This document shows positions 4,120 to 52,705 of a DNA stretch of 64,000 nucleotides, piece by piece (positions within the stretch are counted from its first letter, which is position 1; every line of letters starts with the position of its first letter). The position numbers and the translations under genes are program-made. Below the pieces are notes generated by a model. That model saw only the letters and a list, made by a program, of their open reading frames with translations, was not told the origin of the DNA and ran no database searches. The DNA comes from Heliocidaris erythrogramma (Eukaryota; Echinodermata; Echinoidea; Camarodonta; Echinometridae): assembly GCA_025617745.1 (NCBI GenBank), contig CM046853.1, positions 30,989,313 to 31,053,312 on the forward strand, given 5' to 3'.

Positions 4120-4442
4120 TTGTAGTATTAGACCAAATGGATATTTTACCAAATGAGTTGTAGACCAAACTGTAATTAAACGAACTGAGACTTGGACCTA
4201 ATGATTATTAAACCAACTGGTCATTAGACGAAATGATCATTAGCCCAATTGGTTGATGGATGAAATGATGATTAGACCAAGTGGTATTTGGACGAATTGA
4301 TGATTAGATCATGTGGATATTAGACCAACTGGGATTAGCGGAAATGGTCATAGACTGATCATTGGACGAAATGTTAATGGACGAAATTATATTAGACCAA
4401 ATGATGTTAGACCAGCTGACAATTGGACCAAACGGCAATTTA
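4120..4442 (+). repeat. Degenerate ATTAGACCAAATGG-type short tandem array
   Basis: About twenty variants of ATTAGACCAAATGAT follow one another at 14-20 base spacing (ATTAGACGAAATGATC, ATTAGACCAAGTGG, ATTGGACGAAATG and so on). Two words stay conserved, the GAC(C/G)AA core and the (A/C)TGRT end, while spacing drifts. The array stops abruptly at a run of 24 C. Confidence 0.75.
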
Positions 4443-8535: not shown

Positions 8536-8890
8536 AGAAGAGATAAGGATGACAGATAAGAAGCCAACCTAATTAGAGTCGCGTGGCAGCCACGAGATGG
8601 GTCTCATAATCCTTATCGACATTTTTGTAAGTAATTACCACACGCCTTTGTCCAATATCGATCATTGGGGTACATTGTGTGCTCCGAGCAGGTGCGAACA
8701 GAACGTGGCAACTAGACCACACCGTAGAACCTGCGGACATCTGTATAGGTTTATCCTGGTCTTGACAAAGGAATTCACTTGGTCCACGAACTAGGCCAGC
8801 TGAGGTTTTTGTTTTGTTCTAATCTAAACGGGTTTTGCTATCGTTGGTGCATGCAGAGAGTCAGAAAGTCTTTGTAAACGCAGCTTTCAT

Positions 8891-8948
8891 AAAGTTGGAA
8901 AGATGATTTTCTCGTTTAAAAAAACGAGAAAATCATCTTTCCAACTTT
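8891..8948. repeat. Perfect 27-bp hairpin with a 4-base loop
   Basis: The arm at 8891-8917 (AAAGTTGGAAAGATGATTTT then CTCGTTT) is exactly the reverse complement of 8922-8948, with only AAAA between. No mismatch is present. Confidence 0.9.
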
Positions 8949-9060
8949 AGGTCAGGTCAGGTAGTGGAAGAGACTAAACAAAAGAGATGGAAAAAAAGTA
9001 AAAAGGAAGATAGAAAAATTAGTAAAAGACACATAGATTAGAGGATGGGTAAGGAGATAT

Positions 9061-10580: not shown

Positions 10581-10848
10581 ATGACGAACATGGCAGCCAC
10601 TCAGCTAGCAAGCGGACCCGACACACAACAACCCACCGGCAACCAGGTTTCCCAAGTCGGCAACAAGCCTAACGGAGTTTCATGTGCACCTCAGACCATT
10701 CCTATGAAGGACCATGATGCTATCAAATTATTTGTGGGTCAAATTCCGCGGAATTTGGAGGAGAAAGATCTGCGGCCTATCTTCGAGGACTTTGGCCGCA
10801 TCTACGAGTTGACAGTTCTCAGGGACCGATTCACAGGCGTGCATAAAG
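10581..10848 (+). CDS. CELF/Bruno-like RNA-binding protein, coding exon 1
   Basis: The exon encodes residues 1-89 and one base of codon 90. After a polar, low-complexity leader (1-38) comes [20 protein letters not shown], the signature start of RRM1 in CELF3-6 proteins; LFVGQI (50-55) is the RNP2 motif. RRM1 continues with the [10 protein letters not shown] helix/strand segment and [10 protein letters not shown]. The donor is AAG then GTGCGA at 10849. CELF proteins bind UG-rich RNA and control splicing, translation and decay in nucleus and cytoplasm. CELF1/2 read differently at this point (DAIKMFVGQVPR), so this is the CELF3/4/5/6 clade; the exact orthologue cannot be decided here. A second ATG at codon 4 has an equally good context, so both could initiate. 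Confidence 0.95.
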
Positions 10849-11258
10849 GTGCGAAGGAAATCACTTTTATTATCATGATTAATACAAATTTGTATTTCAA
10901 TATTCATTATGCAATGATGTAATATACTCTTTAAGGGGAGATTGAAGATACAAAATATGGTAATTTGCCATGAACCCCTTCCTATATCAATGGTTTGAAA
11001 GCATTTGTGTGTGCATAATAAATGCTTGTTTTGTACGTACACATGTCAGACATTCTTTGAATGATAAACATCTGAAATGTGAAAGGGATAAAAAGAGAAA
11101 AATTCCTACATACATGGGTTAGGTGTATGTTTCAGCCCTGTAAAAATTATTTTCTTTCTTTTAAAGGTATTTTGGACTTGTGTATAATCATGTAAATGAA
11201 CAAATTATTTGTATAGAATAGTTTAATTTTCTTCATTTTATCTAAATTCACTTTCCAG
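10849..11258 (+). other. CELF intron 1 (410 bases)
   Basis: A GT donor at 10849 and AG acceptor at 11257-11258 (CTTTCCAG after a T-rich tract) bound an AT-rich interval with no other feature. It interrupts the RNP1 motif of RRM1 after the first base of a glycine codon. Confidence 0.9.
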
Positions 11259-11341
11259 GCTGTGCCTTCTTGACATATTGCGACAGAGAAAGTGCAATCC
11301 GTGCGCAGAAAGCTCTACACGAACAGAAGACCCTTCCAGGG
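11259..11341 (+). CDS. CELF/Bruno-like protein, coding exon 2 (83 nt)
   Basis: Joined to exon 1 it completes RNP1 as KGCAFLTYC (89-97) and continues [19 protein letters not shown], the second half of RRM1 in CELF3-6. The length, 83 nt, and the phases (1 in, 0 out) are those of the homologous vertebrate CELF exon as I recall it. The donor is GG then GTATGT at 11342. Skipping exon 2 alone would shift the frame, but exons 2 and 3 together are 132 nt, so skipping both would keep it while destroying RRM1. Confidence 0.95.
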
Positions 11342-34370: not shown

Positions 34371-34750
34371 TCAGCAGTTGATGTTTGTGCGTTTACTTGT
34401 CTGATGAATTTGATTGGGGTTTATTACACCTGGCTCGGTCTCCTATTGCTGACCATTCAATAATCAAATTCTCTGATTCATTCATTTGAATTTTTTTTTT
34501 ACTGTTTTTTTTCACGTTTATCCATTTGGTTGGTAGATAGACGGGTGGACGAGATAATTGAGATGAAATCAGATCAAATAAGATAGGAGATTATCTCTGC
34601 GTGGATTTCTGTTTCATTTGATTGCAGGAAATGGACTGGTGTGTGCATTGTATGCATGGTATGCATTCCATTTAAATTTAGAATGATCTACTTTCTTCTG
34701 AGGGTCCTTCTCAGTTGAAATCGGGCCTAGTTTTGTTTAAAAGGGGGCAA

Positions 34751-34976
34751 CCTCGCTAGTCATAAGGACCGCTAGTCATAAGGACCACTATCCATAACGC
34801 GTGACAAGTGAATAGCGGTTTTGTATGAATAGCGGTCCTTCTAAATAACGAGCAAGCCATAGACAAATTACCTCGCTATTCATAAGGACCTCCATTCATA
34901 AGGACCACTATTCATAACACATGTTAAATGAATAGCGGTTTTCTATGGATAGCGGTCCTTATGAATAGCAAGCGGA
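34751..34976. repeat. Tandem pair of 120-bp fold-back units
   Basis: Unit 1 starts at 34751 and unit 2 at 34871, aligning without gaps. Each unit begins CCTCGCTA(G/T)TCATAAGGACC and ends with inverted versions of the same word (GGTCCTTATGAATAGC in unit 2). Each can therefore fold on itself, and the units can pair with each other. The shared core word is CGCTATTCATAAGGACC. Confidence 0.85.
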
Positions 34977-35317: not shown

Positions 35318-35429
35318 TCAAATTTTGCAGTTCAATATGGCACGAAAAAGAGACATGATAACGAAGCTTTTCGACCTGCACTCATCAGGTTATCACGCAG
35401 GTATAAAATCAAATTTTGCAGTTCAATAT
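35318..35429. repeat. 21-bp direct repeats flanking a roughly 70-base insert
   Basis: An identical 21-base segment (TCAAATTTTGCAGTTCAATA plus T) lies at 35318-35338 and 35409-35429, period 91. The insert between carries the hammerhead-like motif. The repeats could be a target duplication or two units of a tandem array. Confidence 0.85.
35355..35396 (-). ncRNA. Hammerhead-ribozyme-like motif
   Basis: On the - strand the order is: GTGATAAC (stem I, 5' side), CTGATGA (catalytic core), GTGCAGGTC (stem II region), GAAA (core), AGCTTC, then GTTATCAT (stem I, 3' side). The stem I strands pair over 8 positions, seven Watson-Crick and one G-U. Cleavage would follow the C of TTC, an allowed NUH triplet. 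Stem III would be the palindrome AAGCTT, too short to close on itself but able to pair between two molecules, as reported for minimal type I hammerheads of Penelope-like elements and retrozymes. Stem II is poor (one certain pair), and an alternative hairpin, ACCTG with CAGGT, competes. Activity is therefore uncertain. Confidence 0.5.
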
Positions 35430-39715: not shown

Positions 39716-40156
39716 CTAAGTCATCATATACCTTATATCATTTACCACATGCCACCTGCACTATTTTCAATTTAGTGCTACATAACACAAGTTTAGCCAT
39801 CTGCAGCGATATATCCCAGAGAACATCATGTTTACATGCAAATTGAAGCATTAAATGTTTGATAGGCATCAATGCTCATAGCGTATAGTAGGCATGGCTC
39901 TATCGGTATACAGCCTACTGCAGCCCTTTGTCTTGAAAATTAGATTTTCCATGTCCATTATATAGCCTCCACATAATGAGACAAAGCCATGGAGACTGGT
40001 AGCATTACACACACTCACAACTGTCCTTTACTCATAATGCAAGGATGCTATTATTGTGATTTTCTACCACTCTTTTTCTATTTCCCTTCAAATCATGTTC
40101 TCTCACCGTGCTTCTGCACATTACTACATCTTACATTCTTGCACTTAATCACATTT

Positions 40157-40233
40157 CGTCTGTTTGCAGCCAGAAGGGCGTTAACTCATCTACTTTAACA
40201 CAGAGATAGCCCCCTTCTGGCTCCAAACAGACG
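40157..40233. repeat. Small palindromic family, copy D (best preserved)
   Basis: Arms CGTCTGTTTGCAGCCAGAAG... and ...CTTCTGGCTCCAAACAGACG are inverted copies around the centre ATCTACTTTAACACA. The whole element is 77 bases. Confidence 0.85.
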
Positions 40234-40847
40234 ATATTTGACATCCTTTGTAAAGTTTGTGTACATGTATGTGTAGGCTGTCTAAACACAGGGAATGACT
40301 ATCAGAAATTGATTGTTTTCTCATCTTGTCTTTTCGATACAACCCTGTCAAAAACGAGCAAGTCTCATTCTGTAACCGTTCTGGCAGGAAGGGTTGTTTA
40401 CTTGAAGGTAACTTACAAGTGGGTCAGTCCTTTTGACTCTTAGAACAGGGCTCCATGATGGTCGTTCGATTACAGCATTGGAGAAAAGGTCAAGTTTTAG
40501 GTACAACTGGCAATAAAATGTTATGATGATGCCAAGGGACTTGGAGAGATGGAAGACTCACTCGATATGTTTGTATGTGTTGTCGAGTGGGTCTGTTATC
40601 ATACATGCATAAGTAGAGCCCAGAGGGAAAACATTTTTTTTTAAAATAAAGTAGGTTCTAAAATTAACATTGATACATTTTTGCCTATCCCAAAGGTCAT
40701 ATAGGTTGGATAACGGGAGTATATGGAGGGTTAAGTTTGTATTGTTTTCATCATTCTAATATAGTGCAACATTAGGAATATATACTGACTAAAAGTAAGA
40801 TTTTAATAACAGTTTTATCCTTTGATAGATGTAGTAGTTTTAGTACA

Positions 40848-50867: not shown

Positions 50868-52705
50868 GAAGAAACTATGTACAAACCCATGTATTTAATG
50901 TCGATGTTTACCAGATTTTGATTTTGTTTTTCTGCTGCATGTCTAAATTTAGCCTTCAATCTCCTATCAAACTAAGACATATCCATCCTTCTGAAAGATT
51001 TGTAACGAAACATAATTAATTGAAACGTGGCGCGTGTAGAATCAGTCCAGGAAATTGGTTATGGTAAGGTAGTGCTCAGGAACCTCTCAAACATTTGCCC
51101 CTACCCATTCCATATATTCTATTTATTGCAATGATGTTGTCTCATCATTCTGGTATGAACTTATGCCATGTCCTCATGACGAGAGTAATGCACTAGGTAT
51201 GTACATGTATGCTTTTAGTTATTTTAGATCATGGAAAATTAAATCAAGAGAATTGCTCTTGATAAACCAGAAAACTGCTTCTGTAATTGCATGTCCAGAA
51301 GAGCAGTATATCAGAAACTATTTTTTATCCATCCACTAATATTTGAATATACATATTTCCTTGCTATCAATATTTACCAGATTACAATTTTTTTTTTTTC
51401 AATTCCATGTCTGAATGTAGCCTTCAAACTAAGGCATATCCATCCTTCTGAAAGATTTGTAATGAAACACAATTAATTGAAACATGGCACGTGTAGAATC
51501 ATTACCATGAAATTGGTTATGGTAAACATTATCGACAGCGATAGTGCTCAGGAACCTCTCAAACATTTTACCCCATTTCACCCCATTTCATGCATTCTAT
51601 TTAATGCAATGATGTCTCATCAGTGTAGCATGAACCTATGCCATTTCCTCTTGACGAGAGTAATGCACTAGTTTTAGTCATTTTGGATCTTGGAAAATGA
51701 AATCAAGAGAATTGCTCTTGATAAACCTGAAAACTGCATCTGTAATGTCCAGAAGAGCAGTACATCAGAAACTATTTTTTTTATCCATCTACTAATATTT
51801 GTATAGACATATTTCCCTGATTACAATTTTTTTTCAAGTCCATGTCTGAATGTAGCCTTCAAACTGAGACATATCCATCCTTCTGAAAGATTTGTGATCA
51901 AATATAATTAATTGAAACATGGCACTTGTAAAATCATTACCAGGAAATTGGTTATGGTAAGCATTATCGACAGAGATAGTGCTCAGGAACCTCTCAAACA
52001 TTTTACCCTATTTCATGCATTCTATTTAATGCGATGATGTTGTCTCATCAGTGTAGCATGAACCTATGCCATTTCCTCTTGACGAGAGTAATACACTAGC
52101 TAGGTATGTATGCTTTTAGTCATTTTGGATCATGGAAAATGAAATCAAGAGAATTGCTCTTGATAAACCTGAAAACTGCATCTGTAATGTCCAGAAGAGC
52201 AGTAGGCCCCTACATCAGAAACTATTTTTTATCCATCTACTAATATTTGTATAGACATATTTCCCTGATTACAATTTTTTTTCAAGTCCATGTCTGAATG
52301 TAGCCTTCAAACTGAGACATATCCATCCTTCTGAAAGATTGTGATCAAATATAATTAATTGAAACGTGGCACTTGTAAAATCATTACCAGGAAATTGGTT
52401 ATGGTAAGCATTATCGACAGAGATAGTGCTCAGGAACCTCTCAAACATTTTACCCTATTTTATGCATTCTATTTAATGCGATGATGTTGTCTCATCAGTG
52501 TAGCATGAACCTATGCCATTTCCTCCTGACGAGAGTAATGCACTAGCTAGGTATGTATGCTTTTAGTCATTTTGGATCATGTGAAATGAAGTCAAGAGAA
52601 TTACTCTTGATAAAGCAGCAAACTGCTCCTATAATTGAATGTCAAAAAGAGGAGTACATCAGAACCAAATTCTTTTACCCATCTACTAATATTTGAGTAG
52701 GTACT
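50868..52705 (+). repeat. Four-unit tandem array, unit about 435-470 bp
   Basis: The anchor AGTGCTCAGGAACCTCTC occurs at about 51071, 51543, 51978 and 52425, giving periods of 472, 435 and 447. Other shared blocks are CATGTCTGAATGTAGCC, CATATCCATCCTTCTGAAAG, GAAATTGGTTATGGTAA, CTTGACGAGAGTAATGC and the near-palindrome TCAAGAGAATTGCTCTTGA. Units 2-4 are clearly closer to each other than to unit 1, which is the oldest or most diverged. No open frame runs through the units. Confidence 0.9.

Follow-up and report, generated by a model that had tools for sequence, protein, structure and literature searches.

A 78-base stretch on the minus strand of the window—the whole 64,000-nucleotide piece of the Heliocidaris erythrogramma genome analysed here—is, with a probability that we put at about 92% for the whole explanation taken jointly, a very short product of recent retrotransposition by a high-copy Penelope-like element (PLE). 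The stretch (35331–35408) carries what is, by its sequence, a real minimal hammerhead of the PLE type, for which self-cleavage is a prediction. The PLE minimal hammerhead is already known as a kind, reportedly from work by Cervera and de la Pena in 2014 and Lunse et al. in 2017; newer are a rule of one tail per inverted copy and a set of breaks at the predicted cut.

Read on the minus strand from 35398 to 35353, the type I core runs GCGTGATAAC-CTGATGA-GTGCAGGTC-GAAA-AGCTTC-GTTATCATGT. An earlier note, made from the sequence alone, had proposed a hammerhead-type core with its invariant positions in order, and both direct reading and a descriptor scan bear this out: CTGATGA (35382–35388), GAAA (35369–35372), AGCTT (35368–35364) and C17 (35363) follow one another, every core position is present in its place, and the cleavage triplet, TTC, is of the NUH type, the cut predicted from the core falling between C17 at 35363 and the G at 35362. 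Stem I is longer than the 8 bp first proposed: its 5′ strand (GCGTGATAAC, 35389–35398) and 3′ strand (GTTATCATGT, 35353–35362), recovered by the descriptor scan and by covariation, make 10 pairs, two of them G-U, and span 35398–35353. Stem II is below normal length, its 9-nt region (GTGCAGGTC, 35373–35381) holding one G-C pair, a U-U mismatch and a 5-nt loop; the pair between its first G and last C, absent from the earlier note, is presumably the usual 10.1–11.1 pair. The palindrome AAGCTT at 35364–35369, evident on reading and in a dimer fold, agrees with the palindromic stem III that had been claimed, and the 6-bp stem III that it offers would be possible only between two molecules or two units. 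The poor stem II and a competing ACCTG/CAGGT hairpin (35374–35390, from folding), named from the outset as weak points, are both real.

Copies of the motif are dispersed through the genome in their thousands, as a search proposed in the earlier note brought out: across the 1.06 Gb assembly containing the window, the 40-nt motif occurs with up to three mismatches at 4,419 places (2,147 and 2,272 in a scan by strand), against none for the reversed control. A 141-bp query found at least 42 places at E ≤ 0.001 (40 of 320 candidates were scored), most of them covering query positions 32–116, and the 78 bases 35331–35408 recur exactly in 42 of 42 loci (L002–L043, several of which overlap). In such copies the motif occupies the termini of a PLE that has a reverse transcriptase, inverted pseudo-LTRs and a tail on one side; the unit is terminal, leading at one end into variable flanks and at the other into the fixed tail. 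Counted with up to two mismatches, its pieces are unequally common (28-nt core 5,959 matches, upstream piece 3,414, tail 2,116).

One such element, L020, has two head-to-head reading frames with a reverse transcriptase domain (RVT_1, E 3.8e-8) and, in the right place, a GIY-YIG-like end that stays below the Pfam cut-off (18.5 vs 22.6 bits). Its protein bears the motifs CRYVDDTF and YRKPTFTG; we take its reverse transcriptase motifs to be PLE-like, and the label ‘telomerase-like’ rests on them. After the motif the ORF reads, in sense, ATG TCT CTT TTT CGT GCC ATA TTG AAA TTT TGC AGT ACC AAG AAA (MSLFRAILKFCSTKK), and in the window its first codons, as far as GCC (MSLFRA), lie at 35339–35356 on the minus strand. 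With its predicted cut 6 nt ahead of the ATG, the hammerhead spans the junction between pseudo-LTR and ORF, and the tail is further ORF sequence, an arrangement that matches the published PLE layout. Among the first 100 exact matches listed, all on the window’s contig, there are 30 neighbours within 6 kb, of which 28 are inverted with their motifs outward, one has the opposite order and one the same direction; 42 of the 100 have no neighbour within 6 kb in this list, which excludes inexact copies. A DNA transposon with terminal inverted repeats, considered as another source, is ruled out by the one-sided tail and the reverse transcriptase ORF. Judged on sequence features—reverse transcriptase, GIY-YIG-like end, pseudo-LTRs with tail, and target-site duplication, all present—the source of the insert is a PLE. 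The Penelope link drawn in the earlier note is upheld, the insert being the extreme end of such an element, and its suggestion of a retrozyme or independent ribozyme-bearing element gives way.

The direct repeats at 35318–35338 and 35409–35429 (plus strand) are identical over 21 bp, or 96% alike over 24 bp, and 70 bp (35339–35408) lie between them, in line with the roughly 70-base insert between identical 21-bp repeats described at the start. The last 8 bases of the first copy, TTCAATAT, double as the PLE unit's end, a microhomology that leaves 13 bp of target only; the duplication is 21 bp with TTCAATAT counted as target and 13 bp with it counted as element. The idea that the insert might be one unit of a 91-bp tandem fails because the repeats are a target-site duplication flanking a PLE unit, which overlaps one of them by 8 bases, and there is no array at this place. 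The window copy starts at the end that lacks the tail, has no inverted partner and ends at TTTTATACC. Queries with the L020 element and with five PLE protein pieces found no further PLE coding or terminal sequence in the window, which accords with the earlier picture of an unusually small insertion with no reverse transcriptase nearby.

The ends of inverted copies were measured by script in 24 pairs (24 different places among L003–L040), and in 24 of 24 exactly one end is a tail end. That end carries 50–60 nt of the ORF, and the no-tail end stops at 8–31 nt; two further pairs outside this set, L044 and L046, also show a single tail end apiece on inspection by eye. The longest string common to both flanks is 11–13 bp in 21 of the 24 pairs and 21–23 bp in the other three, two of which (L009 and L014) lie within repeats, the third (L016) lying outside repeats and having a longer duplication. 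At the no-tail end 0–5 bases are common to target and element (at least two in 17 of 24 pairs, none in six), against 8 in the window copy, more than in any of these pairs. The rule of one tail bears on how PLEs start reverse transcription on two target strands. A class of short, ribozyme-only copies was also considered and rejected: among the first 100 listed exact matches to the 28-nt core, 54 had no exact match to the upstream piece where it would be expected, and most of the 20 examined, chosen as lone copies and extended roughly by script, were longer copies with a changed upstream piece. The longest junction repeat among the short-looking copies (L108, L109, L112, L113 and L127, with L112 and L113 alike) is 8 bp, in L112 and L113, vs 21 in the window.

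Two routes were taken to further subfamilies. The first, a codon pattern for YRKPTFTG that excludes the main family, found 246 places, from which 17 downstream regions of 701 bases were taken; four of the 17 match a relaxed descriptor (stem I of at least 4 pairs), with 4 pairs in L058, 8 in L062, 4 in L068 and 6 in L070, L071 has the core with a changed GAAA, and the remaining 12 regions have no such core. The second, a core pattern demanding a letter other than C before CTGATGA, found 684 places (control 0); 36 copies hand-picked for variety from the first 100 listed, together with the window copy, make 37 rows, 33 of them distinct, in about three subfamilies. Stem I, whose downstream arm the pattern leaves unconstrained, is the main free test because the core letters, like the GCA loop, were fixed by the search pattern. 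It is paired in 84.1% of cells, and both stems together in 81.5%, vs 71.5% in shuffled rows. The covariation score, taken for the two stems together, is 0.346 vs 0.175 ± 0.022 for shuffles (0/500); related rows may beat such shuffles without structure, and slid structures, which give at most 0.113, serve as the control. For pair 1.2, 19 rows have C-G and eight have A-U; a separate count over six pairs gave 168 of 198 cells paired, whereas 2,000 shuffles averaged 145 and never exceeded 162. Six pairs have any double change, with no excess over shuffles (253/500), and RNAalifold, run on the same rows, prefers a different structure with no pair changed on both sides. The second pair of stem II forms in 19 of 33 rows, stem II having 1–2 pairs overall, and 33 of 41 rows have an ATG no more than 14 nt past the cut. 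As far as these rows indicate, stem I is kept by compensatory change across subfamilies; the earlier note had held that a lack of conserved core positions among genomic copies would tell against a hammerhead, and the copies point the other way.

A second PLE clade in the same genome (L047–L054; YRKPTHTDRYLN), of which eight loci were scanned, includes at L047 a CTGACGA with a 6-bp stem II, GAAA, the palindrome ACGCGT in place of AAGCTT, and a 4-bp stem I. L052 holds a changed version similar to the L047 motif, and L051 has a descriptor match unlike both.

Chance resemblance within a PLE end, with stem I kept for some other reason such as a protein binding site or the coding of the protein start, seems to us highly improbable. 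The descriptor (stem I of at least 5 pairs, CTGANGA, GAAA and NUH) matches the whole window once, at this motif, and 150 dinucleotide shuffles of the window gave 16 matches with a stem I of at least 5 pairs, five with at least 6 and none with at least 8. The compensatory changes in stem I also speak against chance, as does a PLE hammerhead at the same junction that is published and cleavage-tested (PMC11167929). What lends chance some weight is that the start codon shares bases with the 3′ strand of stem I, that stem II is poor, that alternative folds are more stable and that Rfam gives no hammerhead score. With Rfam 15, no hammerhead came up at E ≤ 10 either in 351 bases round the motif or in the whole window, across which nothing reached a gathering score; a covariance score at background level had been named in the earlier note as a sign against its proposal, and on this count the result is unfavourable. 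A Hammerhead_1 search of the genome gave no matches, which says little because the same search was silent in 14 of 14 controls. The minimum-energy fold of the 52-nt RNA sets ACCTG/CAGGT within stem I at −12.6 kcal/mol, vs −8.9 for stem I alone; a two-molecule hammerhead fold, with both stems I and the AAGCUU pairing, has −21.9 vs −31.3 for the best dimer fold, and motifs from three other subfamilies fold no better than shuffles.

An origin in a metazoan non-LTR retrozyme, or another satellite-like element with its own hammerhead, is barely credible. Such an origin would suit the small size, the type I core and the weak stem III, ribozymes of this sort being found in retrozymes according to PMC7229834, but there is no tandem array here, of 30 close pairs in the first 100 listed places 28 are inverted, copies are joined to PLE coding sequence, and a long stem II or loops for helix I–II contact are missing. 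It is also improbable, we think, that the short copy is a strong-stop product reaching an mRNA 5′ end close to TTTTATACC, some 28 nt past TATAATATAG. One arm of L035 and the window copy do end within 2 nt of each other, but a genome scan for copies ending there returned three places (L035 itself and two likely T-run variants), with no enrichment seen by a pattern that admits about 9/16 of such copies and misses the window’s by design.

Other copies may bear marks of the predicted cut. A scan for GTTATC plus the ORF start in which the two letters ahead both differ from those of the element gave 14 places, which were classed by eye. Six are breaks at the cut, five of them joined to a second, inverted element piece. 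Four of the breaks are clean (L135, L137, L139 and, with 14 nt of filler, L140). The other two, L132 and L134, are less clean, a short repeat of this stretch immediately preceding the break. The pair L135 and L137 join the ORF at almost the same point and may share a source. Among the other places, three are unbroken with changes (L129, L131, L136) and two have a 19-nt deletion (L130, L133). L128, L138 and L141 carry the core in reverse orientation between the two arms of stem I, suggestive of a flip or a template switch at GATAAC/GTTATC. At a single control position 5 nt further along there were four places, one a break (L144) and three unbroken with changes. Six breaks against one in the control, too few to decide, are a weak hint, suggestive only, that cut RNA serves as a template; template switching at the stem I repeat, as in L128, L138 and L141, offers an alternative way to favour this break spot. 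A fuller account, in which the breaks record hammerhead-cut RNA used as template, an inverted element arises from two target ends starting at two RNA start sites (tail and no-tail) and the window copy is a one-ended product, is doubtful in our estimate, the more so as two of the six breaks are unclean and two others may share a source. Were it true, PLE hammerheads would act during transposition in the animal, a matter left open by published in vitro work.

For the window copy as a PLE product, we infer the priming and the following order of steps. The element’s protein would nick an AT-rich target, the target 3′ end finishing TTCAATAT would pair with AUAUUGAA at the no-tail start site (roughly codon 8 in the ORF), the reverse transcriptase would run through the hammerhead in the direction of the RNA 5′ end, copying about 70 nt before it stopped, and repair would leave the 21-bp target-site duplication. 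The window copy crosses the cut site, and its template was therefore uncut there. The hammerhead would act, if at all, most likely in two-unit or tandem transcripts, where AAGCUU–AAGCUU could supply stem III; a second unit would be needed because no stem III can arise from the palindrome of a lone unit. Cutting would yield an RNA starting GUUAUC-AUG. Activity is doubtful in transcripts of inverted copies because the motif and its complement are both present and should pair together. According to PMC7229834, amphibian hammerheads cleave more readily in dimeric form, and PMC7761336 allows that those of PLEs may do likewise.

The motif resembles the PLE minimal hammerheads treated in two reviews (PMC6155905, PMC7761336) in its type I core, its little or no stem III of its own, its dimer-suited palindrome and its pseudo-LTR location, and differs in a stem II of 1–2 pairs with a GCA loop (GCA being pattern-fixed in 36 rows) and in being missed by Rfam. 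Poseidon of Anolis carolinensis (PAc), as presented in PMC11167929, likewise has a hammerhead at the pLTR–ORF junction, two internal reverse transcription start sites that define the tail, an AT-rich target and extension of both target strands. However, the PAc ORF begins at stem II, with the cut 26 bp inside it, whereas here the cut precedes the ATG by 6 nt; and for PAc in vitro the two strands did not differ in start site, whereas the measured inverted copies here use a different site at each end. Penelope families of Adineta vaga (PMC3846280) share a pLTR with first codons, a 31-bp tail at one of the inverted pLTRs, short target-site duplications and solo pLTRs; several of those solo pLTRs lack a duplication and are ascribed to recombination or deletion, whereas the window copy has a clean one. 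Metazoan non-LTR retrozymes (PMC7229834) are alike in type I core and weak stem III and unlike in their tandem repeats, which yield RNAs of about 170–400 nt, and in helix I–II contacts; these features are absent here.

These copies record how such elements insert, and the role of the hammerhead in PLEs is an open question in the literature, its in vivo activity and role being called a mystery in PMC7761336; the ribozyme was dispensable for insertion in vitro, with no reads beginning or ending at the cut, in PMC11167929. This genome holds thousands of similar copies, many near-identical, with a ribozyme by the start codon, subfamilies with compensatory change and ends that can be counted to the single base, features that open the role of PLE hammerheads to a test by counting.

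The earlier note placed the insert in a CELF intron. The window has two CELF-like exon stretches (about 10581–10850 and 11258–11341, plus strand), and scans of it with a few short CELF/RRM motifs found no later CELF exon; an insertion inside a CELF intron is plausible, with the motif strand antisense to CELF. Hairpin-like stretches at 15–162, 8888–8951 and 40155–40235 resemble several microRNA families at scores well short of the gathering thresholds, on both strands in some cases, and are possibly inverted-repeat elements. Upstream of the insertion, at 34750–34973, two 104-bp stretches are 85% alike, with short direct and inverted repeats (GAATAGCGGTCCTTATGAATAGC-like), and 50967–52626 is a tandem repeat of a 447-bp unit in 3.7 copies with 86% matches.
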